Shown in pieces: positions 31,639 to 50,243 of a stretch of DNA of 64,000 nucleotides. The translations under genes were made by a program, and so were the position numbers. The DNA is from Anaerolineales bacterium (GTDB lineage: Bacteria; Chloroflexota; Anaerolineae; Anaerolineales; UBA11579). The stretch is taken from assembly GCA_019637805.1 (NCBI GenBank), contig JAHBVB010000002.1, positions 451,981 to 515,980 on the forward strand, written 5' to 3'. Positions within the stretch are counted from its first letter, which is position 1. The number at the start of each line of letters is the position of its first letter. Below the pieces are notes generated by a model, which was not told the DNA's origin, did no database searches, and worked only from the letters and a program-made list of their open reading frames with translations.

Positions 31639-32322
31639 CTAGTCGCGGCTCAGCACGACCCACAGCGCGCGCATGGGTGTTTCGCCGGTGTTGGAGAGGC
31701 GGTGCGGAGTGGTCGAGTCGAAGATGATGCTGTCGCCGGGTCCGAGCACGTAACTTTCAAAGGCCAGTTCCACCAGCAGCTCACCTTCCAGCACCAGCCC
31801 AAATTCGCGGCCGCTGTGGCTGGACATGGTCTTGCCGGACTGGGCTTGCGGCTGGTAACTGATCTCCAGAAATTCGGCGTCGGGTTCCGCGCCGGTGGTC
31901 AGGCGCGCCCATTGAATGCCGCTTTGCAATTCGATCAGCGGGCGGTTGTCGCGCTGCATGATCGGCTCTTGCTTATTGACCGGGTCAAACCCGGCCACGC
32001 GCGCATCGCTGCCTGCTGAGAGCATGGCTTCGCGCAGCTTGCTGGCGGTGTATTCCTGCGGTTCCAGCACGGCTTCGCTGGCCTCAGGGTTTTCACCGTT
32101 CTCAGAAGGGAAGAAGTAGTCCAGCGGTACGTTCAACGCTGCGGCGATCTTGTACAGGGAGCGTACCGAGGGGTAAGCCTTGCCCGTCTCGATCTGGCTG
32201 AGCATGCTCGCGCTGATCTCAGCCGTGCTGGCCAACTCGCGCAGGCTCATTTTATGGCCCTGGCGCGCGGCGAGCAGCTTCTTGCCTATGCTTACTGCAT
32301 CTTGGCGGAGTTCTTCTTGCAT
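31639..32322 (-). CDS. XRE family regulator with C-terminal cupin domain
   Basis: This 227-residue protein has an N-terminal helix-turn-helix of the XRE type (about residues 13-68). The first helix is IGKKLLAARQGHKMSLRELA, followed by ISASMLSQIETGKAYPSVRSL. A C-terminal cupin (about 150-225) contains SHSGREFGLVLEGELLVELA and LGPGDSIIFDSTTPHRLSNTG. XRE-cupin regulators generally sense small metabolites and control adjacent transport or catabolic genes. It is divergent from the M24-like gene, whose promoter is flanked by two identical 11-base repeats; the nearer repeat is 18 bases from this gene's start, so autoregulation is likely. Confidence 0.88.
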   Translation of the reverse strand: MQEELRQDAVSIGKKLLAARQGHKMSLRELASTAEISASMLSQIETGKAYPSVRSLYKIAAALNVPLDYFFPSENGENPEASEAVLEPQEYTASKLREAMLSAGSDARVAGFDPVNKQEPIMQRDNRPLIELQSGIQWARLTTGAEPDAEFLEISYQPQAQSGKTMSSHSGREFGLVLEGELLVELAFESYVLGPGDSIIFDSTTPHRLSNTGETPMRALWVVLSRD

Positions 32323-33985: not shown

Positions 33986-34846
33986 ATGCACTTCGTCTCC
34001 AGCCTGAGCCAGATCGCCGCCGAAACGCCGGACGGTTATGAAACCGCCAGCCGAGGTTTCACGCGGCAAACCTATGTGGACCGCGCCAAGGGCTCGGTGC
34101 ACATGGGTGTGGGCATCTGCGCGCTGGATGAGGGTGGGGCGATCGAGCATCATCTTCATTCGTTTGAAGAGAGCTTCTACGTTTTGGAAGGCCAGGTCAG
34201 CGTGCAGATCGGCGACCTGGCCTTTGTGCTGCGCCCGGGCGACTACGGGCTGATCCCTACCGGCAGCGCGCACGCCTGGCGCAACGCCGGCGACGCGCCG
34301 GCGCGCTGGCTGGAGATGCAGGCCCCGCAGCCACGCTCACTAGACTACGGACGCGATACGTTCTTTGTCCCCGGCGAGTTCCCCGCCAACGCGCAGCCGC
34401 TGGATCCGGCCGCGGCGGGCGGGCTGATGCTGGGCCACTTCGACGAGAGCCAGCTGCCCAAACCCGGCGCGCCCTCAGAGATGGAAGGCTTTGACCCCAC
34501 CACGGGCGTGGCGATCAAGATGTTTGTGGACCGTTCGTCTGGCGCCCTGCACCAGTCCCTGTTTCTGATCCAGTACCAACCTGGCGCCAAGATTGATCCG
34601 CACGACCACACCTTTGAAGAGTCCTACTACATCCTCAGCGGGCGCGTGCGCGCCCTGGCCGATGGCCAAGCCCATGAACTGGGGCCGGGCGATGTGATCT
34701 GGACTGGCGTGGGTTGCATCCACAGCTTTGAGAACGCCGGGGACGAGCCAGTGACCTGGCTGGAAACGCAGGCCTCCCTGCCGCCGGCCAAAGAGGCTTT
34801 CCGCTTTGAGCGCGATTGGGCGGGCAAGTACCCGCAGAGCAGTTAG
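33986..34846 (+). CDS. Bicupin protein, (S)-ureidoglycine aminohydrolase-like
   Basis: This 286-residue protein has two cupin domains. The first (about residues 45-115) has EHHLHSFEESFYVLEG and RPGDYGLIPTGSAHAWRN. The second (about 180-265) has DPHDHTFEESYYILSG and GPGDVIWTGVGCIHSFEN. The H-x-H...E...H ligand set is present in both. The pattern and length resemble ureidoglycine aminohydrolase (AllE), which binds manganese. A paralogue at 48627 lies in the same island. Substrate unproven. Confidence 0.72.
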   Translation: MHFVSSLSQIAAETPDGYETASRGFTRQTYVDRAKGSVHMGVGICALDEGGAIEHHLHSFEESFYVLEGQVSVQIGDLAFVLRPGDYGLIPTGSAHAWRNAGDAPARWLEMQAPQPRSLDYGRDTFFVPGEFPANAQPLDPAAAGGLMLGHFDESQLPKPGAPSEMEGFDPTTGVAIKMFVDRSSGALHQSLFLIQYQPGAKIDPHDHTFEESYYILSGRVRALADGQAHELGPGDVIWTGVGCIHSFENAGDEPVTWLETQASLPPAKEAFRFERDWAGKYPQSS

Positions 34847-34853: not shown

Positions 34854-35711
34854 ATGGCGACAATTGGCTTTATTGGGTTGGGCGTGATGGGCAGCCGCAT
34901 GGTGCAGCGTTTGCTGGCGGCCGGCCACAGCGTCACCGGCTACAACCGCACCCGTGCCAAGGCGGAGGACTTGATTGCCGCCGGTATGAGCTGGGCGGAT
35001 ACGCCGCGGGCCGCCGCCGAAGCGGCCGACATCGTGCTCAGCATTGTCAGTGATACCAAGGCCCTGCAGCAGATTGCTGAAGGGCCGCAAGGCGTGCTGG
35101 CCGGCCTTTCCGCCGGCAAGATCTATGTGGACATGAGCACGGTCAGCCCGGCGGCCATCCGCGAGCTGGCGGCCAAGGCGGCCGGGCTGGGCGCGGCCAT
35201 GCTGGACTCGCCCGTTTCGGGGAGCGTGGCCACGCTGGAGCAAGGTCAGTTGACCATGATGGTGGCCGGCGACCCTCAGGCTTTCAAGCAGGTCGAACCG
35301 GTCTTGCTCGACATTGGCATGAAAGCCACGCATGTGGGCGAGAGCGGCCAGGCGGTTTCGATGAAGATCGCCGTCAACCTGAACATTGCGGCCCAGGTGC
35401 TGGCTTTGAGCGAGTCCGTCTTGCTGGCTGAGAAGGCCGGCATCCCGCGCCAGACCGCGTTGGATGTGCTGACCAACAGTGTGGTCGCCTCGCCGCTGAT
35501 CAAGTACAAGTCGCCCTTCCTGATCGAAATGCCGGACCAGGCCTGGTTCACGGCCGATATGATGCACAAAGATATTGGTCTGGCCCTGGATTTGGCCGAG
35601 GAAGTCGGCGCGAATTTACCCGTGACACAAACCAGTCAGGCCTATTTCAAACGCGTTCAAGAGCTGGGCCTGGGCGGCAAAGATTTTGCCGTAGTGATCG
35701 AGGCCCTTTAG
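34854..35711 (+). CDS. 3-Hydroxyisobutyrate dehydrogenase family NAD(P)-dependent oxidoreductase
   Basis: This 285-residue enzyme has a Rossmann N-terminus IGFIGLGVMGSRMVQRLLAA, VDMSTVSPAAIRELAAKA near residue 98 and LDSPVSGSVATLEQGQL near 118 (substrate loop). ESGQAVSMKIAVNLN near 165 supplies the catalytic lysine region (K-x-x-x-N), and DMMHKDIGLALDLAEE lies near 240. The family includes 3-hydroxyisobutyrate dehydrogenase, tartronate-semialdehyde reductase and related beta-hydroxyacid dehydrogenases. AGGAGC precedes ATG 34854. The specific substrate is open. Confidence 0.87.
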   Translation: MATIGFIGLGVMGSRMVQRLLAAGHSVTGYNRTRAKAEDLIAAGMSWADTPRAAAEAADIVLSIVSDTKALQQIAEGPQGVLAGLSAGKIYVDMSTVSPAAIRELAAKAAGLGAAMLDSPVSGSVATLEQGQLTMMVAGDPQAFKQVEPVLLDIGMKATHVGESGQAVSMKIAVNLNIAAQVLALSESVLLAEKAGIPRQTALDVLTNSVVASPLIKYKSPFLIEMPDQAWFTADMMHKDIGLALDLAEEVGANLPVTQTSQAYFKRVQELGLGGKDFAVVIEAL

Positions 35712-35718: not shown

Positions 35719-36729
35719 ATGGCAAAAGCAGCCAAGCAGACCAAACCCAAAACCAGCAAGTCCGCCACGCCCGACGCCGAAGAGTGGCTGACGATGTACG
35801 AGCAGATGGTGCGCATCCGCAGCTTTGAGGAGCGCGTCAACCTGCTGTATACCTCGGCCAAGATGCCTGGCCTGGCGCATTTGTACATTGGCGAGGAAGC
35901 CATCGCTGTCGGGGTGTGCTCGGTGCTCAACGCCGAAGATTACATCACCAGCACGCACCGCGGCCACGGGCATTGCATCGCCAAAGGTGCCGACGTGGAC
36001 ATTATGTTCGCTGAGCTGCTGGGCAAAGCCGCCGGTTACTGCAAAGGCAAGGGCGGTTCGATGCACATTGCCGACCAGGCCAATGGCAACCTGGGCGCCA
36101 ACGCCATCGTCGGCGGCAGCGCCGGCATCGCCGTGGGCGCGGCCTTCTCGGCCCAGCGGCTGGGCAATGGCCGGGTGGCGGTGTGCTTCTTTGGCGAGGG
36201 CGCCATGGGACAGGGATTTTTGGCCGAGACGATGAACCTGGCCCAGCTGTGGAAGCTGCCGGTCATCTTCGTCTGCGAAAACAACATGTACAACGAGTAC
36301 ACGCACTTTTCTGAAACCACCGCCGGCAACCCAGCGGACCGGGCGCGGGCGCTGGGTATGCACACCGAGGAACAGGACGGACAAGACATTCGAGTGGTAT
36401 ATGAAACCGCCTTGACCGCCGTCGAGCGCGCCCGCCGCGGCGAAGGCCCGGCCTTCCTAATGTTCCACACCTACCGCTATCACGGCCACCATGTGGGCGA
36501 TATCAACCGCGAGTACTACCGTTCCAAGGAAGAGGAGCGCGACTGGGTGGAAAACCGTGACCCCCTGGCCTTGTTTGCCGATTGGCTGCTGGCCAAGAAG
36601 CTGACTGACCGCAGCGTGCTGGACGGCATTGAAGCAGAAGTCAAAGAGGAAGTGGAGCGCGGCGCCCAGTTCGCTTTGGACGCTCCATATCCCGACCCCA
36701 GCGAGGTGAGCACCAATGTCTACGCTTAG
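35719..36729 (+). CDS. 2-Oxoacid/acetoin dehydrogenase E1 component, alpha subunit
   Basis: This 336-residue thiamine-diphosphate enzyme subunit has a Lys-rich start, then YEQMVRIRSFEERV near residue 33, GKGGSMHIAD near 112 and FGEGAMGQGFLAETMNLA near 157, followed by FVCENNMYNEY near 185. The last two form the diphosphate-metal motif, here G-E-G rather than G-D-G. YRYHGHHVGD near 253 matches the phosphorylation-loop region of E1alpha. With the next two genes it makes an E1-E2 complex that oxidatively decarboxylates a 2-oxoacid (or cleaves acetoin) to an acyl-CoA. No E3 gene is in the window. Confidence 0.88.
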   Translation: MAKAAKQTKPKTSKSATPDAEEWLTMYEQMVRIRSFEERVNLLYTSAKMPGLAHLYIGEEAIAVGVCSVLNAEDYITSTHRGHGHCIAKGADVDIMFAELLGKAAGYCKGKGGSMHIADQANGNLGANAIVGGSAGIAVGAAFSAQRLGNGRVAVCFFGEGAMGQGFLAETMNLAQLWKLPVIFVCENNMYNEYTHFSETTAGNPADRARALGMHTEEQDGQDIRVVYETALTAVERARRGEGPAFLMFHTYRYHGHHVGDINREYYRSKEEERDWVENRDPLALFADWLLAKKLTDRSVLDGIEAEVKEEVERGAQFALDAPYPDPSEVSTNVYA

Positions 36730-37726
36730 TGCCGAGAAAACCGGGGTGCGGGTGCTGACCATGGGCGAGGCGATCCGTGAGGCCCTGGCCGAAGAGCTGC
36801 GCCGCGACCCGACCGTGTTCGTGATGGGCGAGGATGTGGCCGAGGCGGGCACCGCCTTCAAGGTGCTGCTGGGCCTGGTGGACGAGTTCGGCCCCGAGCG
36901 GGTGATCGACTCGCCGATCTCCGAGCCGGGCATCACCGGCCTAGGGGTGGGGGCGGCGATGACCGGCATGCGTCCGGTGATCGACATCATGTTCGGCGAC
37001 TTCATCACCCTGACCATGGACCAGATGGTCAACCAGGCGGCCAAGATCCACTACATGTCCGGCGGCAAACTCAAGGTGCCGATGGTGCTGCGCACTACGA
37101 TGGGCGCCTCGCGGCGCTCGGCGGCCCAGCACTCGCAGTCGCTGCATGCCTGGTTCAGCCATGTGCCCGGCCTCAAGGTGGTGGTGCCCTCCACGCCGTA
37201 CGACGCCAAGGGTCTGCTCAAAACCGCCATCCGCGACGACAACCCGGTAGCCTTCTTCGAGGACAAGATGATGTACCAACTCAAGGGCGAAGTGCCCGAG
37301 GAGGAATACACCATCCCCTTCGGTGTGGCGGACATCAAGCGCCCTGGCACGGACATCACCATCGTGGCCACCAGCAGTATGGTGCAGGTTTCGCTGGCCG
37401 CCGCCGAAATGCTGGCTGAGATCGGCATTGAGGCCGAAGTGGTCGACCCGCGCACCACCTTCCCGCTGGACAAAGAGGCCATCATCGAATCGGCCAAGAA
37501 GACCAGCCGGGCGATCGTGGTGGATGAAGGCTACGAGCGCTACGGCGTTACCGCCGAGATCGCTTCGGTGATTGCCGATGGCGCCTTCTATTATTTGGAT
37601 GCGCCGGTGAAGCGCATCGGCGCCATGGACGTGCCGATCCCTTTCTCGCCCGCGCTGGAAGACCTGACCGTGCCCACTGCGGACACCGTGGTGGAGACCG
37701 CCAAGGCCCTTTGCGGCCGCAACTAG
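36716..37726 (+). CDS. 2-Oxoacid/acetoin dehydrogenase E1 component, beta subunit
   Basis: This 336-residue E1beta subunit starts inside the end of E1alpha (14-base overlap). Family marks are FVMGEDVAEAGTAFKV near residue 35, IDSPISEPGITGLGVGAAM near 65, DFITLTMDQMVNQAAKIHYM near 95 and DPRTTFPLDKEAII near 245. E1beta supplies part of the thiamine site and the C-terminal domain that binds E2. Acetoin-type and branched-chain enzymes share these motifs, so specificity cannot be read here. Confidence 0.88.
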   Translation: MSTLSAEKTGVRVLTMGEAIREALAEELRRDPTVFVMGEDVAEAGTAFKVLLGLVDEFGPERVIDSPISEPGITGLGVGAAMTGMRPVIDIMFGDFITLTMDQMVNQAAKIHYMSGGKLKVPMVLRTTMGASRRSAAQHSQSLHAWFSHVPGLKVVVPSTPYDAKGLLKTAIRDDNPVAFFEDKMMYQLKGEVPEEEYTIPFGVADIKRPGTDITIVATSSMVQVSLAAAEMLAEIGIEAEVVDPRTTFPLDKEAIIESAKKTSRAIVVDEGYERYGVTAEIASVIADGAFYYLDAPVKRIGAMDVPIPFSPALEDLTVPTADTVVETAKALCGRN

Positions 37727-37735
37727 GAGCCCACC

Positions 37736-39097
37736 CTGGCTATTGACGTAATTATGCCCGCCCTGGGGATGGCCCAGGAAACCGGCCGCTTGCTGAAGTG
37801 GTACAAGGCCGCCGGGGAGCAGGTCACCAAAGGGGAGCCGCTGATGGAGGTGGAGACCGACAAGGTCACCGTCACCATCGAGGCGGCGGACAGCGGTACC
37901 CTGGCCAATGTGGTTGCCACCGAAGGCCAGGATGTGCCCGTGGGCGAAACCATTGCTCATTTGCTGGCGCTGGGTGAGGCGGCCCCACCGCCGCCCGTGA
38001 TCCGCAGCGCGGCGCCCAGTGCGCCAGCGGGCAAACCTGCCGCCGCACGCCCGCAAGCCTCTCAGCCGCGCCAACCTGCCGCCCAACCGATAGCTCCGGC
38101 GGGCAATGGGCGCGCCGTGGTGGTCAATGCCAGCCCGGTGGCCCTGCGCATGGCGGCCGAAAACGGCATCGACCTGGCGCTGGTCAAGCCGGGCGGGGGG
38201 CGCGTCACCCGCGAAGATGTGCAGGCCTATCTGCAACAGCGGCAGCGTCCGCTTGCGGTCGGCCCCGGTGGGCGCGTCTTGGCTTCGCCCAAGGCGCGTC
38301 GCCTGGCGGGCGAGGCCGGGCTGGACCTGGCGTTCATCCCCGGCAGCGGTCCGGAAGGGGCTGTGCTGGTGATTGACCTGCCGCTGGCCGCGGCGGGGCC
38401 GCAGACTCCGCCGCCATTACCGGCCGGGATGAGCGAAGTCAGCCTGGGCAGCCTGTGGCGCGTGATGGCCGAGCATGTCACCCAGAGCTGGCAGGATGTG
38501 CCGCATTTCTATTTGGTGCGCGAAGTGGACGCCGGGGCGCTGATGGCCGCCCGCCAGAAACTCAAGGGGCAGGGCGAAACCAAAGTAACCTTTACTGATA
38601 TGCTGGTGAAGCTGGTGGCCAAGACGCTTAAGCAGCATCCCAACGTCAACGCCACCTGGATGCGCGGCACACTGGCCTTGATCGAAGACATCAACGTTGG
38701 TCTGGCGGTGGGCGTGCCGGATGGTCTGGTGGTGCCGGTGGTGCACAAAGCCGACCAGCTCAGCGTGCAGGAAATTGCCCAGCGGCGCGGCGAGATCGTG
38801 GAACGCGCCAACCAAAAGGCCCTAGGCCCGCAGGATATTCAGGGCGGCACGTTCACCATCAGCAACCTGGGTATGTACAATATTGATGCATTCAACGCCA
38901 TCGTCAATGCGCCCCAAGCCGCCATCCTGGCGGTTGGGCGCATTGTGGAGCGCGTGGTGGCCCAGGAGGGCAAGCCGGTGGTGCGGCCCATCCTGACCAT
39001 GACGCTTTCCTGCGACCACCGCGTGGTAGACGGCTTGCGCGGGGCCGAGTTCCTCGATACGCTGGCTAAACTGATCGAAGATCCGAATTTGGATTAA
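37736..39097 (+). CDS. Dihydrolipoamide acyltransferase E2, probable CTG start
   Basis: This E2 component has a lipoyl domain (lipoyl lysine in MEVETDKVTVTI), an Ala/Pro linker, two short peripheral-subunit-binding segments (NASPVALRMAAENGIDLALV and ASPKARRLAGEAGLDLAFI) and a catalytic domain ending with LSCDHRVVDGLRGAEFL (H and D of H-x-x-x-D-G). The first ATG (37754) would cut into the first lipoyl strand. CTG at 37736 gives MAIDVIMPALGMAQE, the usual E2 start. It lies six bases after TAGGAG, and no ATG, GTG or TTG exists between the in-frame stop at 37724 and 37754. From CTG the protein has 453 residues. Confidence 0.85.
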   Translation: MAIDVIMPALGMAQETGRLLKWYKAAGEQVTKGEPLMEVETDKVTVTIEAADSGTLANVVATEGQDVPVGETIAHLLALGEAAPPPPVIRSAAPSAPAGKPAAARPQASQPRQPAAQPIAPAGNGRAVVVNASPVALRMAAENGIDLALVKPGGGRVTREDVQAYLQQRQRPLAVGPGGRVLASPKARRLAGEAGLDLAFIPGSGPEGAVLVIDLPLAAAGPQTPPPLPAGMSEVSLGSLWRVMAEHVTQSWQDVPHFYLVREVDAGALMAARQKLKGQGETKVTFTDMLVKLVAKTLKQHPNVNATWMRGTLALIEDINVGLAVGVPDGLVVPVVHKADQLSVQEIAQRRGEIVERANQKALGPQDIQGGTFTISNLGMYNIDAFNAIVNAPQAAILAVGRIVERVVAQEGKPVVRPILTMTLSCDHRVVDGLRGAEFLDTLAKLIEDPNLD

Positions 39098-39105
39098 GGA
39101 GCCTC

Positions 39106-40596
39106 ATGGAAAGCAAACGCCTGCGCGATTCGCAGACCCGCGCTGCAGAGCAAGACGCCGCCAAGACCGAGATGGGCGAATTCGGCGTGCTGCTGGACGG
39201 TAAGTGGCTGAAGACCGGCGATGCCATTGGTGTGCACAGCCCCTACGACGATGCCCTGGTGGCTGTGGTACACCGCGCCGGCCCCGAGCAGATCGAGCAG
39301 GCCATTCAGGTGGCCACCGCCGCCTTCCAGACCACCCGCAAAATGCCGGTCTGGAAGCGGGCTGAGGTGCTGACCAAGGTCAGCCAGGGGATTGCCGCCC
39401 GCCGTGAAGAGCTGGCCCGCACCATCGCCCTGGAAGCCGGCAAGCCCATTCGCACCGCCCGCTTGGAAGTGGACCGGGCTACTTTCACCTTTCAAGTGGC
39501 TGCGGAAGAGAGCAAGCGCATTTACGGTGAAATTGTCCCGCTGGATTGGCTGCCCGGCGCCGAGAACCGCGTGGCGCATGTGATGCATGTGCCGCTGGGA
39601 CCAATTGCGGGCATCGCCCCGTTCAACTTCCCGCTCAATTTGGTTGCCCACAAGGTGGCCCCGGCCATGGCGGCCGGTAACCCGATCATTTTGCGCCCGG
39701 CCAGCGCCACGCCGCTCAGCGCGCTGAAGCTGGGCGAGATCATTCTGGAAGCCGGCTGGCCGGAGGGCGGCTATGCCGTGGTGCCTTCAGCCACCAAGGA
39801 CGCTGCGCCATTGGTGGAAGACCCGCGTATCAAGCTGCTGACCTTCACGGGCAGCCCGGCGGTGGGCTGGGCGCTCAAGGCCAAGGCCGGCATGAAGCGC
39901 GTAACCCTGGAGCTGGGCGGCAACGCCGGCGTCATTGTGCACGACGACGCCGACATTGACTACGCCGCCGAGCGGGTGGCCTGGGGCGGCTTCTCGTACG
40001 CCGGCCAATCCTGCATTTCAGTGCAGCGCGTTTACATTGCCCAAAAGGTCTATGAAGACTTCGCCGAAGCCCTGGTCCCGCGTGTAAAAGCGTTGGTGGT
40101 GGGTGACCCGCTGGATGAGAAGACCGACGTGGGCCCGATGATCGACGTGGGAGCGGCCGAACGCCTGGACAACTGGGTGGGCGAAGCCAAGACCGGCGGG
40201 GGCCAGGTGCTGGCGGGCGGCAGCCGCAAGGGCACGCTGTTCCAGCCCACAGTGCTCAGCTCGATCGACGAGAGTATGTCCGTGTCTTGCCAGGAAGCCT
40301 TTGGCCCCATTTTGGGTTTATACCAGTACACTGATGTGCACCAGGCCATTCGCGCCGTGGATAGCAGTGAATTCGGGCTGCAGGCTGGCATCTTTACCCA
40401 GAATATGGGCATCATCCACGCGGCCTTTGAGGAAATTGAAGTCGGCGGCTTGATGGTGAACGACGTGTCCACCTTCCGCATGGACCATATGCCCTACGGC
40501 GGCGTGAAACAGTCTGGCCTGGGCCGCGAAGGCCTGCGCTATGCGATGGAAGAGATGAGCGAACTCAAACTGCTTACCTTCAACCACCGCAGCTAG
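39106..40596 (+). CDS. Aldehyde dehydrogenase family protein
   Basis: This 496-residue NAD(P)-dependent aldehyde dehydrogenase has the motifs PLGPIAGIAPFNFPLNL near residue 165 (cofactor domain), TFTGSPAVGWALK near 246, catalytic Glu in TLELGGNAGVIV near 267 and catalytic Cys in AGQSCISVQRVY near 304. The ending GGVKQSGLGREG is also standard. It resembles the lactaldehyde, glyceraldehyde-phosphate or succinate-semialdehyde group; the exact aldehyde is unknown. It begins nine bases after the E2 gene, with GGAGCC as ribosome site. Confidence 0.88.
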   Translation: MESKRLRDSQTRAAEQDAAKTEMGEFGVLLDGKWLKTGDAIGVHSPYDDALVAVVHRAGPEQIEQAIQVATAAFQTTRKMPVWKRAEVLTKVSQGIAARREELARTIALEAGKPIRTARLEVDRATFTFQVAAEESKRIYGEIVPLDWLPGAENRVAHVMHVPLGPIAGIAPFNFPLNLVAHKVAPAMAAGNPIILRPASATPLSALKLGEIILEAGWPEGGYAVVPSATKDAAPLVEDPRIKLLTFTGSPAVGWALKAKAGMKRVTLELGGNAGVIVHDDADIDYAAERVAWGGFSYAGQSCISVQRVYIAQKVYEDFAEALVPRVKALVVGDPLDEKTDVGPMIDVGAAERLDNWVGEAKTGGGQVLAGGSRKGTLFQPTVLSSIDESMSVSCQEAFGPILGLYQYTDVHQAIRAVDSSEFGLQAGIFTQNMGIIHAAFEEIEVGGLMVNDVSTFRMDHMPYGGVKQSGLGREGLRYAMEEMSELKLLTFNHRS

Positions 40597-40619
40597 AACG
40601 AAAATTTCAGCAGGATCTA

Positions 40620-41906
40620 CTAGCTGGCTTTCAGGACGTGCTTTTGCGTTTTGAAAGCCAGTTCTTGTAAGCGGCCCAGCTCAAAATTCAGCAGCACTCC
40701 ACCGCGTTTGAGGATCTTGCCGCCCACCAGCACCGTGTCCACGTTGCTGGCGTCCATGGCCCAGGCCACCGCGCCAATCGGGTCATTCACCGGCATAACG
40801 TTGATGTGGTGCTCCTGCAGCAGGATGATGTCTGCCTGCTTGCCGGGGGTCAGGGTGCCTATCTGCGCCTCCAGCCCCAGGGCGCGCGCTCCGTTGATCG
40901 TGGCGTATTCGACCACGTCCCGGGTGGTGATGTGCCCGGGTGACAGGCGCATGGCCAGTTTCTTTTCAAAAGACATGGCGTGCTGCATGGCGATCACCGC
41001 GCGCATTTGAGAGAAGAGGTCGCCGCGGTTGGCAATTTCGGAATCGACGCCCAGGCTGGGTTGCAGCTTGGCGTCCAGGAACCTCTGGATCGTCGGCGCG
41101 CCGTAGCCGGCCAGCATTTCCGTATTGGCGCTGATCGCCACCGCGCCGCCGCTGTCTTTGATGAGGCGCAGTTCCTTGTCCGAGAGCGTATTGCCGTGCG
41201 CGTAGAGCACGTCCGGCCCAAGCAACTTGGCTTTCTGCAACGCGGCAAGCGGTTCCTTGTCTTTTGCGGCCATGCCCACTTGGGCGGAAATGCGGATGCC
41301 CAGCTGGCGGGCCATCCCCCAGTCGCTTTTGATCTGGTCTAATGAAGCCGTGTCCAGGTCGGCAGAGGCCACCGCAAAGCTGATCAGGTCCTGGTTGGAA
41401 TCCAATTGGTCGCTAGGCTGTTCGCCAGCTTTGAGCGATTTGGTGTTGAAGGCAAATACGGAGCGGATGCCGGAGTCCACCAGAGCCTGTAGGTCGGCGG
41501 CCATGTGTTCTTTGGAGCCGCCTACATCTGCATGGTTAAGCACGGTGGTGATGCCTGCATCAATGGCGCCTGCCGCGCTGGACAGGGTGCTGGCGAAGAC
41601 GTCTTCGGGTCGAAAGCTGGCAGCCAGCTGGCTGGCTGCCTTGGCGGCTGATCTGTCTTTGGCGAAGAACTGGCTGCCAGTGTTGCGCAGCACGCCCTTC
41701 CACATGTGGCGATGGCTGTCAATGAAACCGGGCATCACGATCATACCGGTGGCATCGATCACTTCTGCGCCAGGCGCAATCAAGTCCTGTGAAACCGCGG
41801 CGATCTTGGAACCCTCGATCAGCACATCACAACCCACCAAGTTACCAACCTGGGGGTCCAAGCTGAGCACCGTGCCGGACTTGATCAGCAATTTTCGATC
41901 TTCCAT
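40620..41906 (-). CDS. Amidohydrolase family protein with altered metal site
   Basis: This 428-residue protein starts at ATG 41906 (MEDRKLLIKSGTVLSLD), after AGAGG. It is of the cytosine/8-oxoguanine-deaminase type (COG0402). MPGFIDSHRH gives H65 and H67; VLYAHGNTLSD near 232 gives a further His; LGVDSE near 280 gives the late Asp. At the strand-5 metal position the expected His is Gln (ISAQVGMA, Q209), and the catalytic Glu of H-x-x-E is missing. Its paralogue fused to a permease at 46161 keeps that His. The gene is antiparallel to its neighbours and divergent from the importer. It may be a shifted-specificity or inactive copy. Confidence 0.78.
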   Translation of the reverse strand: MEDRKLLIKSGTVLSLDPQVGNLVGCDVLIEGSKIAAVSQDLIAPGAEVIDATGMIVMPGFIDSHRHMWKGVLRNTGSQFFAKDRSAAKAASQLAASFRPEDVFASTLSSAAGAIDAGITTVLNHADVGGSKEHMAADLQALVDSGIRSVFAFNTKSLKAGEQPSDQLDSNQDLISFAVASADLDTASLDQIKSDWGMARQLGIRISAQVGMAAKDKEPLAALQKAKLLGPDVLYAHGNTLSDKELRLIKDSGGAVAISANTEMLAGYGAPTIQRFLDAKLQPSLGVDSEIANRGDLFSQMRAVIAMQHAMSFEKKLAMRLSPGHITTRDVVEYATINGARALGLEAQIGTLTPGKQADIILLQEHHINVMPVNDPIGAVAWAMDASNVDTVLVGGKILKRGGVLLNFELGRLQELAFKTQKHVLKAS

Positions 41907-42079
41907 CAATACCTCTGCCCATGTGTTAAGAGTATTACTTATTGTAATAGATTTCCGCCAAGCGTTTAGTGCAATCAAACACTCTGGCGCAAAAAGCTCG
42001 GTTTGCGCCTGTTTTCACGAATAGAAGCATGGTCTTGTCAAGTCTTAGTGAACAACTTGGGATTTTTGTTTGATAGGAC

Positions 42080-42109: not shown

Positions 42110-42185
42110 GCAACATCTCCAGAAGCCAACTTCCCCAATGGTTATGCCAATGACTTTCCTTGAAGCAATGTGTTAAGGGTACACC

Positions 42186-43223
42186 TTGAGCACACGAACC
42201 GATCAAGCCTTTAGAGACTTTCTTACTTCGGTTGTCATCTCATCGCGTTATATCCCCGTGTGGATCGCGACCGTTCTTTTGCTTGTGTTGGCGTATTTTA
42301 TAGCTCCCGGCACTCTTTCCACCGTTTCGTTCACCGCTGTTCTTCCTCTTACTGCTTTTCTTGCCATTGTTAGCCTGGGCCAAATGCTGGTTGTGATGAC
42401 CGGCGGTATTGATCTATCCATCCCGGGCACCATGACTTTGGCCGCTTTCGTAACCGTGGGTGTCGCCGGCGGCTCCAGCGACAATATTTTGCCCGCGCTG
42501 GGCATGGCCTTGGGTGTTTCCGCCCTGATTGGCTTGGTGAACGGCTTCCTGGTGGGTGTCATTCGCCTGAACGCGCTGATCGTGACCCTGGCAGTCGGCC
42601 AGCTGGTGCGCGGCATTCTGCTGCGCTATGCCACCACGGTGGCGAATGAGGCCTCTGTGCCTGGCGCATTGTCACAATGGGCCATCCAGCAGGTGTTTGG
42701 CGCCGGCTGGATCTTTTGGATCGCCCTGATCACCGTGGTGATTGTAAGCCTGGTGCTAAGCAACACCGGCATCGGCCGTCGCTTCCGCGCCGTGGGCGCC
42801 AACCAAGTGGCGGCCCGCATTTCCGGCTTGCGTGTGACCAGCTATGTGGTCATGGCTTATGTGGTGGCCGCCGTGCTGTATGGCCTGGCCGGCTTCCTGG
42901 CCGCCGCTTTCATCCGCAGCCCAACCCAGGGCCTGGGGTCGCCCTACCTGCTGGGACCGATTGCGGCCGTCGTGATTGGCGGCGCTTCGCTCAGCGGCGG
43001 CCTGGCCAGCGTGGCTTCCACGGCCATGGCGGCCTTTTTCCTGACGGTGCTGAGCCAGATGCTGCGAGTTTTGGGCCTCTCCACCGACTTGCAATTCGTG
43101 GTGTTTGGCCTGGCGATCATTGGCGGCATGGCTGTCTCGGGTGATCGTATTGTAGACATGGTCGAGTTCTTATTCCAGAAACGTTTCAGCAAAAATTCAG
43201 AAGAAAGCCACTTAGCCACATGA
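42186..43223 (+). CDS. ABC transporter permease, RbsC/BPD_transp_2 type
   Basis: This 345-residue protein starts at TTG 42186 (MSTRTDQAF). It has about ten helices and the family markers MLVVMTGGIDLSIPG near residue 70 and NALIVTLAVGQLVRG near 130. The coupling loop is GRRFRAVGANQVAARISG near 200, followed by LGPIAAVVIGGASLSGG near 260. It is one of two permeases of a CUT2-like importer for sugars or nucleoside-like compounds. The partner permease is fused to an amidohydrolase. Confidence 0.88.
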   Translation: MSTRTDQAFRDFLTSVVISSRYIPVWIATVLLLVLAYFIAPGTLSTVSFTAVLPLTAFLAIVSLGQMLVVMTGGIDLSIPGTMTLAAFVTVGVAGGSSDNILPALGMALGVSALIGLVNGFLVGVIRLNALIVTLAVGQLVRGILLRYATTVANEASVPGALSQWAIQQVFGAGWIFWIALITVVIVSLVLSNTGIGRRFRAVGANQVAARISGLRVTSYVVMAYVVAAVLYGLAGFLAAAFIRSPTQGLGSPYLLGPIAAVVIGGASLSGGLASVASTAMAAFFLTVLSQMLRVLGLSTDLQFVVFGLAIIGGMAVSGDRIVDMVEFLFQKRFSKNSEESHLAT

Positions 43224-43310
43224 AGGAGGTCAGATGGGACAAACGGTCAATCAACATAAGTTGCAGGCCGTCTAGTTCGTAACCCGCTAGCTAAAAGGAG
43301 AAGATTGATT

Positions 43311-44570
43311 ATGAAACAGGTAGACATGAAGAAATTTGCCATTCTCATTGCTTTGTTTGCAATGGTCTTGGCAGCTTGCGCTGGGACCCCAACCTCTGCG
43401 CCGGCAGCTTCTGGAGAGGACACTGCTCCGGCGGCCGGAGATGAGAGCGTTCCGGCTGGTCGCTCGAGCGAAACCTTTGACGCCGACCCTGAGGTCTTGA
43501 TGAAGACCATGGGTGTCTCTGACGCGTCTGAGGTCAATGAGGTCGTGCTGGCCGCCATGTACCGCGCCGGCCTCCCCGTCAGCGATGAGATGGCCGAACT
43601 GGCCTTGAAGTGTTGGCGTGAGAAGGAATGCGACACCGGTACAGGTGGTGATGTGACCGTGGCTCTGGCTGATGGCTTTGGCGAGAACCTGTGGCGCGAA
43701 GTGACCCACATGGAAATGGTCTTGCAGGCTCTGACCTATCCTGAGATTGGCCGCATCATTTACACCACGGCTATGTTCGACACCCAGCAGGCGATTGCCG
43801 ATATCCGCGGCCTGATCGCTCAGGATGTTGACATCATCGTGGGCTTCCCGGATGCGGGCGATGCCCTGATCCCGGTGGTGCGTGAGGCCACTGAGGCTGG
43901 TGTCCTGTATGTGACCCACTCCTATGGTGTGCTGGGTGACGGCAGTGATTACCTGACCTCGGTGTCTGAAGACGTCTGCTTGCTGGGCCAGGAGTTTGCT
44001 CGCATCCTGAACGAGGAAGTGGGCACCGGTAAGGTCGCCTTCCTGGGTGGCACGCCGGGCAATCCACTGTCTGCTTACTGGCAGGGCTGCGAAGAGCCCG
44101 CCTTGGGCGAGGGCATTGAGCTGGTTGGCGCCGCCGACACCTTCTGGACCCGTGAGGGCTCCTTTGATGCGATGTCCGGCTTCCTCAGCGCTCATCCTGA
44201 TCTGGCTGGTGTAAGCTACGAAGCCGCTGGCTCCTTCATGGGTGGCCTGAGCGCTTACGAAGCGGCTGGCCTGCCGGTAGACCTGGTGTTGACCCTGCGC
44301 ACGGACGAGACTGTCCTGTTCTGCGAATGGATCGACATGGGCAAACCCGATAACTTCAAGATCTACTTTGGTTCGGGTGGCAACTACCAGTCCCGCATCG
44401 CCCTGACGGCTGCCATGATGCACTTGAACGGCTATGAAATTCCGTCCAGCATTGTGATCCCGCCGTACATGCAGCAGGTCAACGAGAGCCACTGCTATCG
44501 CGATCTGCCGGATGATGCCTCGATCTCCTCGATGGTGCCGCATGATGTCGTGCGGGCCATGTACCCCTAA
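43311..44570 (+). CDS. ABC transporter substrate-binding lipoprotein (Peripla_BP_4 type)
   Basis: This 419-residue lipoprotein has signal MKQVDMKKFAILIALFAMVL, lipobox L-A-A-C with Cys23, then an Ala/Pro-rich linker. The periplasmic-binding fold covers about residues 110-400. VTVALADGFGENLWREVTHM starts lobe one, DIIVGFPDAGDALIPVV and GKVAFLGGTPGNPLSAYWQG belong to the hinge region, and VSYEAAGSFMGGLSAYEAAG follows. The about 85-residue segment between linker and fold is unusual. ATG 43311 lies behind AAAAGGAG; an upstream TTG or ATG 43326 is possible. It feeds the adjacent permeases and ATPase. Confidence 0.85.
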   Translation: MKQVDMKKFAILIALFAMVLAACAGTPTSAPAASGEDTAPAAGDESVPAGRSSETFDADPEVLMKTMGVSDASEVNEVVLAAMYRAGLPVSDEMAELALKCWREKECDTGTGGDVTVALADGFGENLWREVTHMEMVLQALTYPEIGRIIYTTAMFDTQQAIADIRGLIAQDVDIIVGFPDAGDALIPVVREATEAGVLYVTHSYGVLGDGSDYLTSVSEDVCLLGQEFARILNEEVGTGKVAFLGGTPGNPLSAYWQGCEEPALGEGIELVGAADTFWTREGSFDAMSGFLSAHPDLAGVSYEAAGSFMGGLSAYEAAGLPVDLVLTLRTDETVLFCEWIDMGKPDNFKIYFGSGGNYQSRIALTAAMMHLNGYEIPSSIVIPPYMQQVNESHCYRDLPDDASISSMVPHDVVRAMYP

Positions 44571-44594
44571 CCACTAACAGGAACCGCTAAGTTA

Positions 44595-46160
44595 GTGGCA
44601 AAGAAGAATCAGAACCCCAGCAGCGAGAGCCTCGCGCTCTCGCTGCTGGGAGTTTCTAAACGGTATGGCACCGTCCAGGCTCTGCAAAATGTGAGCCTGG
44701 AATGCCGCCCCGGTGAGATCCACGCAGTGGTGGGTGAGAACGGGTGCGGCAAATCGACATTGCTGGGCATTGCCAGCGGCTTTGTCGAACTGGACGAAGG
44801 CACTGTCCACATCATGGGCAAACCGCTGACGACCGATTCGCCGGCCAAGGCGCGTGAACTTGGCCTGGGCATGGCCTACCAAGAGATCTCTCAGGTGGCC
44901 ATGATGACCGTGGCCGAAAATCTGTATATGGCTGCTTCCAAGAAGCAGCGTCCTTTTTATTGGAAACTCAAAGATTGGGCAATCCAGATCCTGGCCAAGT
45001 TTGAACTGGATGACCTGTTTGCCGAAGCGCCAGTCTGGAGCCTGGCGCTGGCCGAGCGGCAACTGCTCGAGGTGACCAAAGCTCTGCTTTCCGAACCCAA
45101 GGTCTTATTGTTGGATGAACCCACCACGGCTATGGGCCCGGCTGAGGTGGAATGGCTGCACCGTACCATCAAGGAGCACGCGCAACGCGGGGTGTGTGTG
45201 GTGTATGTTAGCCATCGCTTGCCGGAAGTGTTGGAAGTGGCCGACCGGGTGACTGTACTGCGCGACGGTCGCACGCAGGGCACCTATGATGCCCGCAAGG
45301 TCAGCGAGGCCGAACTGGTCGAGTTGATGATTGGCCGGCCGCTGGACTCCGCCTTCCCGCCGCGTATTGAGATCGGCGAAGAGACCGATGTCGTCCTTTC
45401 GGTCACGGATCTGCATGGGGAATTCTTTGGCCCGCTGAGCTTCACGGCCAGGAAGGGCGAGATCATTGGCATTGCTGGCGTGGAGGGCAACGGGCAGGGC
45501 GACCTGTTTTGGACGCTGTCCGGCGCCATCCCGCCCAAGGGCGGCATTGTTCAGGTAGACGAAAAGCACGTCAATCTGACTTCGCCCACCGGAGCGCTGC
45601 GCTCCGGCATTATGCTGCTGGCCGGCGACCGCAAACGGGATGCACTCTTCCTGGTGTTGGGTGTTACCAGCAATGCTTCCATTCAAGTATTGGACAAATT
45701 TAGCCGGGCGGGCTGGCTGCTTCCGGGCTTGGAACGAAAACTGGTCTCTGAAATGACCCAGCAACTCAAACTGCGCTCTCCATCGCTGGAGCAGCCGGTG
45801 AGTTTTCTGTCTGGCGGCAACCAGCAGAAAGTGGTCATGACGCGCCCCTTCCTGTTCGAGAACGTGCGCGTGATTCTGACCGATGAACCGACCCAGGGCG
45901 TCGATGTGGCTTCGCGGTTTGACATCTACGAAGCCTTGCATACCAAGGCTTCGCAGGGCACGGCAATCATCATCAAATCCAGCGACCCCATCGAACTTTC
46001 CAGCCTGTGCAATCGCGTACTGGTCATCTCGCGCGGGCAGATCGTGCACGATCTGCCCCAGGAACATCTCAGCGAGCGCACCATCATCGAAGCCATGGTG
46101 GGCGGAGCGAAAGTAGGCAATGTGGAAGACCAATTTACGATCAGCGGAAGAGAGGATTAG
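44595..46160 (+). CDS. ABC transporter ATPase with two nucleotide-binding domains (RbsA/MglA type)
   Basis: This 521-residue ATPase starts at GTG 44595. Domain one has Walker A GENGCGKSTLL near residue 48, a degenerate signature SLALAERQLLEV near 150 and Walker B LLLDEPTTAMGP near 172. Domain two has a degenerate Walker A (GVEGNGQGDLFWTLSG near 298), but the signature LSGGNQQKVVMTRPF near 408 and DEPTQGVD near 432 are intact. Such asymmetry is normal for the family. The next gene begins right after its stop. Confidence 0.9.
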   Translation: MAKKNQNPSSESLALSLLGVSKRYGTVQALQNVSLECRPGEIHAVVGENGCGKSTLLGIASGFVELDEGTVHIMGKPLTTDSPAKARELGLGMAYQEISQVAMMTVAENLYMAASKKQRPFYWKLKDWAIQILAKFELDDLFAEAPVWSLALAERQLLEVTKALLSEPKVLLLDEPTTAMGPAEVEWLHRTIKEHAQRGVCVVYVSHRLPEVLEVADRVTVLRDGRTQGTYDARKVSEAELVELMIGRPLDSAFPPRIEIGEETDVVLSVTDLHGEFFGPLSFTARKGEIIGIAGVEGNGQGDLFWTLSGAIPPKGGIVQVDEKHVNLTSPTGALRSGIMLLAGDRKRDALFLVLGVTSNASIQVLDKFSRAGWLLPGLERKLVSEMTQQLKLRSPSLEQPVSFLSGGNQQKVVMTRPFLFENVRVILTDEPTQGVDVASRFDIYEALHTKASQGTAIIIKSSDPIELSSLCNRVLVISRGQIVHDLPQEHLSERTIIEAMVGGAKVGNVEDQFTISGRED

Positions 46161-48617
46161 TTGAACCGGAACAAGGAACGCCTCAAGAAAGCCGCTATCC
46201 GCATCAGGGAGTGGTATCCCCTGATGCTGATGATCTTGCTGATCTATGGTTTGGGCGCCTATTCCGGCTCTCAGTCCAGCGCTTTCCTATCCGAATACAA
46301 CCTCAACAATCTATTGCAGGCGACCCTACCGTTGGCGCTTGTGGCCATGGCCCAGGTCAACGCCATGCTGGTTGGCTACCTGGATATTTCGGTCGGCGCC
46401 ATCATGGCCTTCTGCATTGTGGTGTTGTCCTTTATCGCCACCAACAACGCCACACCTGAGATGGTCTTGCTGGCCTTCGTGCTGGTGCTGCTGATCGGCG
46501 GCGGGGTGGGCTTGTTCAACGCTTTCCTGGTGCGCGGCGTCAAACTGCCGCCCATCATCGCAACCCTGGCCACGCTCAGCATTCTGGACGGCGTCTCGCT
46601 GGTGCTGCGCCCGGTGGCTGGCGGCCAGATCAACTTCGACGCGCTGAGTATCTTCAAGGCCAAGGTCGGCTGGGTGCCGACGGCTTTCATCGTCACGCTG
46701 GTCGTGGCGATCCTGTGGGATATTTGGCTGCGCCGTTCGGCAGGCGGCCTGCGCCTGCGAGCCACCGGTCGTGATGTGCGCGCCGCTCGCCGCCTGGGCA
46801 TCAAGACCAAATTCATCCAGGTGCGTGCTCTGGTGCTCTCTGGCCTGATGGCGGCCGTGGCGTCCTACTTTCTGGCGGTGCAAGTGGGCGTGGGCGACCC
46901 ACGTTCCGGCACCAACTTCGCGCTGATCAGCATCGCTGCCGCGGCCCTGGGCGGTACCAGCCTGATGGGCGGCCTGGGGCACTTCACCGGCGCGTTGGCG
47001 GTCAGCCTGTTTCTCTCGCTGATCAGCAATATGTTCTCGCTGCGCATCATCACCGCCACCTGGATCAACGACCCGATCGTGATGGGCGCCCTGACCATCT
47101 TCGGCCTCATCCTGTACCAGGTGGAAGACCTGCGCCTGCTGATCAAAGAGAACTGGAAGAAGCTGCGCCGTGTCTTTACCGCCACGCGTGAGCGGCGCAA
47201 GGACTACGCCGTGGCTAACGTATTCCTCAACGGCCACAGCGGCAACGGGGTGGTTGCGCCGGTGCCAGAAGACCAGCGTGTGCTGATCAAGGGCGGCACG
47301 GTGCTGACGCTGGATGCCAAGCTCGGCGACTTCCAGAAGGGCGATATCCTGATCGAAGGCAAGAAGATCGTCAAAGTGGCGGCCAATATCACCTCTGGCG
47401 GCGCCCAAGTGATCGACGCCAGCAACATGATCGTGATGCCCGGCTTTGTGGACACCCACCGCCACATTTGGGAGGGCCTGCTGCGCAACATCGGCACCGA
47501 TGTGCCGCTGGAGGGCCGCAACAGCTACATCCGCTTCGTGCTCGGCCGCCTGGGCCGCGCTTATCGTCCCCAAGATGTGTACGCCGGCAACATCGTCAGC
47601 GCTTTCGGCGCCATCGACGCTGGCATTACTACCCTGCTGGATTGGTCGCATATCCAGGCCTCGCCGGAGCACACGGATGCGGTCATCCAGGCGATCAAAG
47701 ATTCCAATATGCGCGTCGTGTTCGCTTATGGCTTCCCCTGGTGGGGCAAGTACGAACCCAAGCAGCCGGGCTGGTTTGTACGCGCGGCGCGCATGCACTT
47801 CACCAGCAAGGACCAGCTGCTGACCTATGCGCTGGCCGCGGCCGGCCCCGAGTTCACCGAATTCGAGGTCACCCGCGCCCACTGGAACATGGCCCGTTCG
47901 GTGGATGCACGCCTGACCGCCCACGTGGGCGTAGGCACCTTTGGCCAGCGCCGCAAGGTGGAGGAGTTCGGCCGCAAGGGGCCGGAACTGATGGGCCCGG
48001 ACACCACCTACATCCACTGCACGACCTTGAATGACACCGAGATCCAAATGATCGTCGACTCCGGCGGCACCGTCTCCCTGGCTGCCCCGGTGGAGATGAT
48101 GATGGGCCACGGCATGCCGCCGACCCAGAAGTTCCTGGACCGCGGTTTGAAACCCGCCCTCAGCGTGGACGTCGAGACCAACGTGCCTGGGGACATGTTT
48201 ACCCAAATGCGCACCATGCTCTCCCTGCAGCACAGCCTGATCCATGAACGTATCCTGGCAGGCGAGTCCAAGGTGCCCAAGCTGATCAGTGAGAAGGACG
48301 TGATCGAATATGCCACCATTGAAGGCGCCAAGGCCAATGGCTTGGACCACAAGGTGGGCACGTTAACGCCCGGCAAGGAAGCCGACATTATTTTGCTGCG
48401 CACAGACCAGGTCAATGTCACCCCGCTGAATGATCCCTATGCAGCCGTGGTGTGGGGTATGGACACCAAAAATGTGGACACGGTGATGGTGGCGGGCAAA
48501 GTGTTGAAGAACAGCGGCCGATTGGTGAATGTGGACCTGAATGCCGTGCGCAACATGGTCTACGATGCGCGTGATCACGTGATCAAGAAGGCGCGCTTCA
48601 GGCTGCCTACTATCTAA
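46161..48617 (+). CDS. ABC permease fused to amidohydrolase
   Basis: This 818-residue single reading frame starts at TTG 46161. Residues about 20-325 form an RbsC-type permease (VNAMLVGYLDISVGAIMAF near 75; LPPIIATLATLSILDGVSL near 130; RLGIKTKFIQVRALVLSG near 215; AAALGGTSLMGGLGHFTG near 260). A charged linker (about 326-372, ENWKKLRRVFTATRERR) leads to an amidohydrolase (374-818). Its metal site has MPGFVDTHRH (H433, H435), LTAHVGVGTF, TYIHCTTLND and LSVDVET. The H-x-x-E glutamate is missing. No stop or obvious internal ribosome site separates the two parts. The standalone paralogue is at 40620. The order suggests hydrolysis of the imported substrate at the inner face of the channel. Confidence 0.85.
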   Translation: MNRNKERLKKAAIRIREWYPLMLMILLIYGLGAYSGSQSSAFLSEYNLNNLLQATLPLALVAMAQVNAMLVGYLDISVGAIMAFCIVVLSFIATNNATPEMVLLAFVLVLLIGGGVGLFNAFLVRGVKLPPIIATLATLSILDGVSLVLRPVAGGQINFDALSIFKAKVGWVPTAFIVTLVVAILWDIWLRRSAGGLRLRATGRDVRAARRLGIKTKFIQVRALVLSGLMAAVASYFLAVQVGVGDPRSGTNFALISIAAAALGGTSLMGGLGHFTGALAVSLFLSLISNMFSLRIITATWINDPIVMGALTIFGLILYQVEDLRLLIKENWKKLRRVFTATRERRKDYAVANVFLNGHSGNGVVAPVPEDQRVLIKGGTVLTLDAKLGDFQKGDILIEGKKIVKVAANITSGGAQVIDASNMIVMPGFVDTHRHIWEGLLRNIGTDVPLEGRNSYIRFVLGRLGRAYRPQDVYAGNIVSAFGAIDAGITTLLDWSHIQASPEHTDAVIQAIKDSNMRVVFAYGFPWWGKYEPKQPGWFVRAARMHFTSKDQLLTYALAAAGPEFTEFEVTRAHWNMARSVDARLTAHVGVGTFGQRRKVEEFGRKGPELMGPDTTYIHCTTLNDTEIQMIVDSGGTVSLAAPVEMMMGHGMPPTQKFLDRGLKPALSVDVETNVPGDMFTQMRTMLSLQHSLIHERILAGESKVPKLISEKDVIEYATIEGAKANGLDHKVGTLTPGKEADIILLRTDQVNVTPLNDPYAAVVWGMDTKNVDTVMVAGKVLKNSGRLVNVDLNAVRNMVYDARDHVIKKARFRLPTI

Positions 48618-48626
48618 GGAGATAAG

Positions 48627-49526
48627 ATGCAAGCGAGGTTTTTGGTCCGCACCGCCGACCAGGCAGATTTTGTCTTGCCCAAGGAGTTTGAAGGCATCAG
48701 CCAAGGCTTCAGCCGCTGGTCGATCGTGAATGGCGAGTCCGGTTCTGTGCACCAGGAGTTCAACATTTGCGAACTGGAGCCCGGTGGCTCGATCGACACC
48801 CACTTGCACACTTTCGAAGAGAGCGTGTATGTGCTGGAAGGGGAACTGATCTGCGAGACCGGCGACGGCGCCTTTGCGCTGGGGCCGGGTGATTACGGCG
48901 TCATCCATATGGCGGCGGCCCATGGGTACCGCAACCGCAGCGATGCGAAAGTGCGCTGGGTAGAAATGCTGGCCCCGCAGCCGCGTCTGTGGAAAGAAGG
49001 CGACGTTTTCCCCATTCAGGCGGCCATCGCTCAAACCGGCGAGCCGATCAAAGTGGACCCGCGTGACCCACGCACGCGCTTTTTTGGCAACATCACCGCC
49101 CAGCACATGGACCCCAGCAAGCAGTCGCAGGAGCTGCTGGCGGTCTCCGGCAGCATGCGCACGGCGCTGCTGGTGTACACCGGCATCAGCGTCAAGATGA
49201 TGGTGGACAGCGACCTGGGCGCTTATTTGCATACCATGTTTATGGTCAAATACATCCCAGGCGGCGGCGCCGGCAGCCATGACCATCCCTTCGAAGAGAC
49301 CTACATGATCCTGGATGGCGAAGTAGAAGCCTGGTTCGACAATCAAACTTTCACGCTTAAGCCGGGCGACGTGGCCTGGGCGGGAGTGGGCTGCGTGCAC
49401 GGCTTCAAGAACAAGACGGATACCACGGTACAGTGGCTGGAAACCTCTGCGCCGCAGTCGCCCGCGCGCTATGCGTATCGCTTTGGGCGTGACTGGGATT
49501 ATTTTGAAGACAAGATCAGTAAGTAA
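48627..49526 (+). CDS. Bicupin protein, paralogue of the 33986 gene
   Basis: This 299-residue protein has two cupin domains. The first has DTHLHTFEESVYVLEG and GPGDYGVIHMAAAHGYRN. The second has GSHDHPFEETYMILDG and KPGDVAWAGVGCVHGFKN. It aligns with the 33986 bicupin over its whole length, including MLAPQPR versus MQAPQPR between the domains, so they are paralogues. It begins nine bases after the fusion gene, with AAGGAG as ribosome site, and is presumably the next step after transport and hydrolysis. An aminohydrolase or isomerase is possible. Confidence 0.72.
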   Translation: MQARFLVRTADQADFVLPKEFEGISQGFSRWSIVNGESGSVHQEFNICELEPGGSIDTHLHTFEESVYVLEGELICETGDGAFALGPGDYGVIHMAAAHGYRNRSDAKVRWVEMLAPQPRLWKEGDVFPIQAAIAQTGEPIKVDPRDPRTRFFGNITAQHMDPSKQSQELLAVSGSMRTALLVYTGISVKMMVDSDLGAYLHTMFMVKYIPGGGAGSHDHPFEETYMILDGEVEAWFDNQTFTLKPGDVAWAGVGCVHGFKNKTDTTVQWLETSAPQSPARYAYRFGRDWDYFEDKISK

Positions 49527-49544
49527 CCGGACGGGAGTGGACTA

Positions 49545-50243
49545 ATGGCTGGAAAAGGCACTGTAGTGGTGGTTGGGGGGACTTCTGAACTGGGCAAGAG
49601 TGTGGCCGTGCATTACGCTGAGAAAGGGCACCCGGTGGTGATTACCGGCCGGGAGCCGGGCCGCGCCCAGCAAATCGCTGCCGAGATCGGTCATGACGCG
49701 GTCGGCATTAACTTCGACCTGAGCAAGCCCCAGGAAATTGCGACTGCCCTGGCGGATGTGAAAGATGTGCTTTATTTGGTGCTGGTCTCTATCTCACGTG
49801 ACGAGAACAGCGTCAAGAACTACGATATCAAGCAGGCAGTGGAGCTGGTGACGCTCAAGCTGGTGGGCTACCCGGAGGTCGTGCATGCCCTGCTGCCACA
49901 CATGCGCCCGGATGGGGCCGTGCTGATGTATGGCGGCATGGCCAAGGAGCGTCCGTACCCCGGCTCCACCACAGTGACCAGCATCAACGGCGGCGTCTCG
50001 ACCCTGGTGCGCGCCATGTCTGTGGAGTTGGCCCCGCTGCGCATTAACGCCATTCACCCGGGAGTGGTGGGCGAGACGCCTTACTGGGCCGACAAGCCTG
50101 CCGGCGTGCTTGAAGCGCTGTCTGCCCGCACGCTGACCGGCAAGCTGGTGACGGTCAAGGACGTTACAGACGCAGCCATTTTCTTGCTGGAGAACCAGGG
50201 TGTCAACGGCGTCAATTTGGATGTAGATGGTGGCTGGTTTTAG
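49545..50243 (+). CDS. SDR-fold protein lacking the catalytic Y-x-x-x-K
   Basis: This 232-residue short-chain dehydrogenase fold has a nucleotide loop VVVGGTSELGKSVAVHYAEK, DLSKPQEIATAL near residue 60, RINAIHPGVVGETPYW near 165 and a C-terminus VNGVNLDVDGGWF. In the active-site helix the usual Y-x-x-x-K is replaced: TVTSINGGVSTLVRAMS aligns Val and Asn to Tyr and Lys. The protein may therefore bind a cofactor without classical SDR catalysis. It is the last gene of the importer operon before a strong terminator. Confidence 0.75.
   Translation: MAGKGTVVVVGGTSELGKSVAVHYAEKGHPVVITGREPGRAQQIAAEIGHDAVGINFDLSKPQEIATALADVKDVLYLVLVSISRDENSVKNYDIKQAVELVTLKLVGYPEVVHALLPHMRPDGAVLMYGGMAKERPYPGSTTVTSINGGVSTLVRAMSVELAPLRINAIHPGVVGETPYWADKPAGVLEALSARTLTGKLVTVKDVTDAAIFLLENQGVNGVNLDVDGGWF

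Follow-up and report, generated by a model that had tools for sequence, protein, structure and literature searches.

An ABC importer encoded in the window (the whole 64,000-nucleotide stretch of Anaerolineales DNA analyzed here) carries an amidohydrolase as the second half of one of its permeases. The gene, designated PermB::AH (46161..48617, + strand), is a real permease-amidohydrolase fusion: its 818 codons are open with zero internal stops, and an RbsC-type permease (residues ~1-330) runs through a linker (~331-372) into an amidohydrolase (373-818). The N-terminal half matched BPD_transp_2 (PF02653) at residues 48-314 with 92.5 bits, and the C-terminal half matched Amidohydro_1 (PF01979) at residues 424-781 with 110.8 bits (Pfam gathering cut-offs, 26.8 and 25 bits, respectively). 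NCBIfam placed the enzyme half in PRK08204 (NF006056; 503 bits against a cut-off of 391). The original prediction had described a single uninterrupted 818-residue frame with both parts complete and with H433 and H435 in a THRH motif; the open frame and the two family matches bear this out, and both histidines lie within DTHRH. The fusion, apparently undescribed, unites an importer type and an enzyme family that are each known. Our literature search found no description of such a protein, which is weak evidence, since open-licence papers were searched.

Importer operon and predicted topology

The importer is complete in the window, with PermB::AH as its last gene. It begins with PermA (42186..43223, +), a second, unfused RbsC-type permease matching Pfam BPD_transp_2, followed by a Peripla_BP_4 substrate-binding protein (43305..44570, +; Pfam) whose weak PDB relatives are sugar-type binding proteins. 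The next gene encodes an RbsA/AraG-type ATPase with two nucleotide-binding domains (44595..46160, +; two stretches of Pfam ABC_tran), for which the best NCBIfam matches were AraG and RbsA, both below cut-off. PF02653 exceeded its gathering score in the permease half of the window protein and in 37 of 37 aligned homologues. Judged from these family matches and from an operon with a periplasmic binding protein and a two-domain ATPase, the importer is an RbsC-class ABC importer with two non-identical permeases. The start codon of PermB::AH, a TTG, comes immediately after the stop codon of the ATPase gene and is preceded by a Shine-Dalgarno-like GAGAGGA, suggesting that translation of the two genes is probably coupled. 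In another locus (L024, 1501-3876), a single open frame of 834 aa apparently joins an RbsA-type ATPase to an RbsC-type permease.

We utilized AlphaFold2 to predict the structure of the whole fusion, which gave a mean pLDDT of 75 (86 for the permease alone). The last membrane helix reaches residue ~341, residues 342-372 are of low confidence, and the enzyme follows, so the linker is probably flexible according to the model. Foldseek matches to the permease were topped by HmuU, PsaC and BtuC, all weak (E 7.5e-3 or worse; TM ≤0.47 by query and 0.55 by target). Among the Foldseek and VIA matches listed, which are filled by the enzyme domain, no solved chain joins a permease to an amidohydrolase. 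The basic N-terminus, the basic segment after the last membrane span and the even number of helices beyond the coupling loop favor a cytoplasmic C-terminus, in line with the earlier placement of the enzyme on the cytoplasmic side.

Distribution, origin and selection

With one genome scanned per species, co-linear permease and enzyme were identified on 42 further contigs, at 54-98% identity. The hosts belong to Anaerolineae and Acidimicrobiia, and the isolate Desertimonas flava SYSU D60003 is one of them. The original prediction had proposed looking for the same co-linear architecture elsewhere, and had named a stop or frameshift between residues 330 and 372, or homologues that are always split, as observations that would speak against it. 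Instead, the fusion recurs on these contigs in two phyla, the linker is open in every aligned homologue, and 37/37 of these match both Pfam families. A basic stretch after the last membrane helix (DLKELVKRNYRRARRL in many homologues) is kept, and linker length differs between lineages. Two of the contigs warrant separate mention. In one from UBA6912 (L080, 7049-10141), counted among the 42, the enzyme part is split over two frames by sequencing error or recent decay. In the other (L056), the fused gene lies on a 3.5-kb contig that was binned as Fimbriimonadaceae and is probably mis-binned, its sequence being nested within Acidimicrobiia in the tree.

Within the window genus, 8 of 11 genomes (the window's own included) encode the full fusion at 80-100% identity; one of the three genomes lacking it is rated 96% complete and the others 68-76%. 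Intact fusions were found in ~17 of 296 Acidimicrobiia genomes, and among 298 genomes sampled from the window's class its own was the sole carrier, indicating a patchy distribution. No split ortholog was found in ~750 genomes covering the window's order, the sample of its class and Acidimicrobiia. In that search, every permease match above 43% identity was a co-linear fusion, except for fragments at contig edges. The nearest unfused permease, at ~42-43% identity, is from Desertimonas, and the importer operon around it has no amidohydrolase gene. Besides the fused importer, Desertimonas flava has a second one of this class that is unfused (L098, G151:C23:276500-292500; PermB 42% identical); it includes two genes for binding proteins and lacks an amidohydrolase. 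Plasmid records contained zero fusions.

A maximum-likelihood tree was built from 92 enzyme domains, 42 of them fused. All 42 fused domains formed one clade (support 100/99), and on this tree the fusion arose once and was then kept, with no reversal detected in two phyla. One apparent standalone (L072), the only unfused row inside the fused clade, begins at a contig end and was rejected as probably truncated. Acidimicrobiia fusions are nested within those of Anaerolineae, which suggests that the operon moved from Chloroflexota to Acidimicrobiia. Pairwise distances for the permease and enzyme parts were correlated (r = 0.91, 37 members), as expected under joint inheritance. In the window genus, dN/dS ranged over 0.03-0.16 in the fused enzyme, 0.07-0.27 in the permease and 0.01-0.28 in the linker (leaving out one pair with saturated dS). 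These low values point to purifying selection on all three parts.

Active site and the standalone paralog

The five metal ligands (HxH, the strand-5 His, the strand-6 His and the strand-8 Asp) were invariant in 42/42 fused domains, as were many further active-site residues. The HxxE position, three residues after the strand-5 His, is Val in all 42; of 15 deaminase-type outgroup enzymes, 12 have Glu there. Fused domains also have a new Glu, E645, where the outgroups have Asn. The absence of the HxxE Glu disfavors the usual deamination, and with it deamination of purines, pterins or creatinine, compounds of the kind that the original prediction had named for testing; the active-site sequence favors an enzyme that hydrolyzes or rearranges an ester, lactone or amide. 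By fold, the domain resembles zinc deaminases and chlorohydrolases (MTA/SAH deaminases and AtzA/TrzN; VIA Z 39-41). It differs from them in lacking the HxxE Glu and in scoring far below the equivalog cut-offs, the best COG0402 deaminase/chlorohydrolase score being 164.6 against 609, for N-ethylammeline chlorohydrolase.

The domain also matched NatAM (VIA Z 33), a benzoxazole-forming amidohydrolase (PDB 6sj0) that is a dimer and has a zinc site of His75, His77, His253 and Asp345, with Ala256 three residues after the strand-5 His253 and Glu321 24 residues before Asp345 (PMC7204872). The fusion has H433, H435, H588 and D670, with V591 at the position of the Ala and E645 located 25 residues before D670, an agreement in spacing that makes E645 a candidate equivalent of Glu321. 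Unlike the fusion, NatAM is biosynthetic and soluble, and identity in the structural alignment is ~23%. A NatAM-like enzyme would be expected to act on aromatic carboxylate esters. In these residues, the fused active site looks more NatAM-like than deaminase-like.

A standalone amidohydrolase, also of PRK08204 (404 bits against a cut-off of 391; Pfam, NCBIfam), lies divergently beside the importer at 40620..41978 (-), where the original prediction had noted it. The description of the locus as holding both split and fused forms proved misleading, because this protein is a paralog that split off long ago, shares 44% identity with the fused domain and falls outside the fused clade. A standalone paralog is a constant companion of the fusion: all 28 loci that extend far enough upstream have one. 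The window's standalone has Gln in place of the strand-5 metal His. None of the six standalones from the window genus (0/6, all by this His-to-Gln change) retained the five metal ligands, compared with 10/17 from Acidimicrobiia and 8/8 from other Anaerolineae. A Fisher test on ligand retention gave p = 2e-6, for sequences that are related to one another, and our reading of the tree and the ligand table gives ~5 independent losses. In the window genus, the standalone evolves 2-3x faster than the fused domain (dN/dS 0.14-0.42). The contrast between invariant ligands in the fused domain and their repeated loss in the standalones suggests that catalysis is probably kept in the tethered domain and was repeatedly lost in the free paralog. 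NatAM, a relative by fold, is a dimer, from which, together with co-occurrence and ligand loss, we infer a likely pairing of free paralog and tethered domain; in several lineages the standalone would then be a non-catalytic partner.

Catabolic island and the proposed role of the fusion

A conserved catabolic island of ~15 genes (31639-50243) contains the importer, whose final gene is PermB::AH. The island opens with a PuuR-like HTH-cupin regulator (31639..32322, -; NCBIfam) and an enzyme of the M24 metallopeptidase fold (32580..33974, +), both conserved. The latter is DddP-like, with 125.7 bits against a DddP cut-off of 600 and an E-value of 2.6e-25 to PDB 4s00. A bicupin follows (33986..34846, +; ORF and NCBIfam), then a reductase resembling 2-hydroxy-3-oxopropionate reductase and 3-hydroxyisobutyrate dehydrogenase (34854..35711, +; NCBIfam, below cut-off), and both are conserved in related islands. 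A 2-oxoacid dehydrogenase is encoded by E1 alpha (35719..36729, +; NCBIfam), E1 beta (36716..37726, +; an ORF with island homologues, one of which is a transketolase-type E1 subunit by Pfam) and the lipoyl acyltransferase E2 (37754..39097, +; NCBIfam), of which E1 alpha and E2 are conserved in islands. An aldehyde dehydrogenase (39106..40596, +; NCBIfam, below equivalog cut-offs) is an island member in the window genus. Downstream of the fusion are a second bicupin (48627..49526, +; two Pfam Cupin_2 matches) and an SDR oxidoreductase (49545..50243, +; Pfam, NCBIfam), both found in related islands. Five further Anaerolineae genomes share most of the island genes and two Acidimicrobiia share part of them; a genome from a different family (G026) has an M24 gene at 84% identity. 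DMSP, ectoine and creatine were not adopted as substrates, as the M24 gene scored far below the equivalog cut-offs for DddP, ectoine hydrolase and creatinase. Nor was a substrate adopted from the binding protein, its sugar-type matches being weak.

Gene neighborhoods of unfused relatives provide a lead. Relatives at 40-45% identity, borne on plasmids of Sinorhizobium, Martelella, Cupriavidus and Rhodococcus, adjoin genes for an extradiol dioxygenase, an aromatic hydroxylase, a citryl-CoA lyase and a CoA transferase. In two such loci (L109, 7699-10455; L110, 8950-11663), a PRK08204-type amidohydrolase lies beside an extradiol dioxygenase pair, a citryl-CoA lyase and a CoA transferase, an apparently uncharacterized aromatic catabolic cluster common to several plasmids. 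The nearest unfused amidohydrolases (66-67%; L073, 4297-9338, and L077, ~7977-9335) are free proteins near Liv-type (branched-chain-type) ABC genes, and in L073 the amidohydrolase is followed by a 4-hydroxyphenylacetate hydroxylase-like gene. From these neighborhoods, the substrate is probably a ring or ring-derived compound, a lead whose aromatic link rests on relatives at only 40-45% identity, for an importer whose binding protein resembles sugar-binding proteins. No clear aromatic oxygenase was found in the fused-gene island.

We propose that PermA and PermB would form the channel, so that each transporter would carry one tethered enzyme domain. The zinc-type amidohydrolase on the cytoplasmic C-terminus of PermB would then be a permanent part of the transporter, hydrolyzing or rearranging the compound taken up, which is probably aromatic or related and a small ring, an ester or an amide. 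This reaction would be the first step of the catabolism encoded by the island (M24 enzyme, bicupins, SDR, oxidoreductases and 2-oxoacid dehydrogenase), and the standalone paralog would pair with the tethered domain, as fold relatives can act as dimers. We moderately favor this reading of a permanently tethered first catabolic enzyme with the standalone as its partner, under which uptake is probably tied to the first breakdown step in these Chloroflexota and Acidimicrobiia. More tentatively, the fused domain might be catalytic only as a heteromer with the degenerate standalone, the transporter being assembled with its own pseudoenzyme partner and converting its substrate during or just after import. 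ABC importers have their ATPase dimer beneath the permease and are powered by ATP. Because ATP already drives uptake, hydrolysis is not needed as the driving force that had been proposed; because the ATPases lie under the permease, an enzyme at the mouth of the channel is to be read as a hypothesis. Functional coupling of transport and hydrolysis is plausible.

The fusion might instead fix only stoichiometry and membrane location, with the enzyme drawing on a cytosolic pool and no hand-off. A low-confidence linker of ~30 residues that varies in length between lineages would suit this, as would the related enzymes that work unfused beside other transporters; but a single fusion event with no detected reversal in two phyla and the conserved basic helix after the last membrane span argue against it, and we regard it as unlikely. 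We are more doubtful that the domain is mainly a ligand sensor gating transport (trans-inhibition), like the regulatory domains on other ABC importers. It is predicted to hang from the permease on the ATPase side, and a non-catalytic paralog exists, but a pure sensor would not need the invariant metal ligands and active-site residues.

Two further alternatives concern the polypeptide itself. An internal translation start or proteolysis in the low-confidence linker (342-372) could yield two separate proteins in the cell, and an in-frame GTG does lie near residue 374; this GTG, however, has no strong ribosome-binding site ahead of it, and the linker is open in every homologue, making two proteins very improbable. 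An assembly artefact or a recently lost stop codon has a negligible chance and was excluded, because independent assemblies across two phyla, one of them from a cultured isolate, have the identical junction.

Whether transporters can pass their cargo straight to an enzyme has long been asked, and the separateness of the two proteins in most candidate pairs makes it difficult to test. Here a single polypeptide comprises both and evolves under purifying selection in two phyla; the degenerate paralogs, as putative partners, provide a natural set, and the compact catabolic island could help identify the substrate. Annotation blind to function would call such genes either "permease" or "amidohydrolase", concealing the other half.

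Known ABC-importer fusions carry extra substrate-binding, CBS or ATPase domains. As in those cases, a transporter subunit here has gained a domain by fusion, but theirs bind ligand, regulate or power transport, whereas this one is a catabolic-type hydrolase. Like RbsC/CUT2-type importers for ribose, arabinose and AI-2, the window importer combines a pair of BPD_transp_2 permeases with a two-domain RbsA/AraG-like ATPase and with a binding protein of the Peripla_BP_4 family; unlike them, it falls below cut-off on all equivalogs and one of its permeases bears an enzyme domain. The fused and standalone enzymes both score above the NF006056 cut-off of PRK08204/COG0402 amidohydrolases, and the fused one has their metal ligands. 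The members of that family seen here outside the fused clade are free proteins, whereas the PermB::AH enzyme is a domain of a permease.
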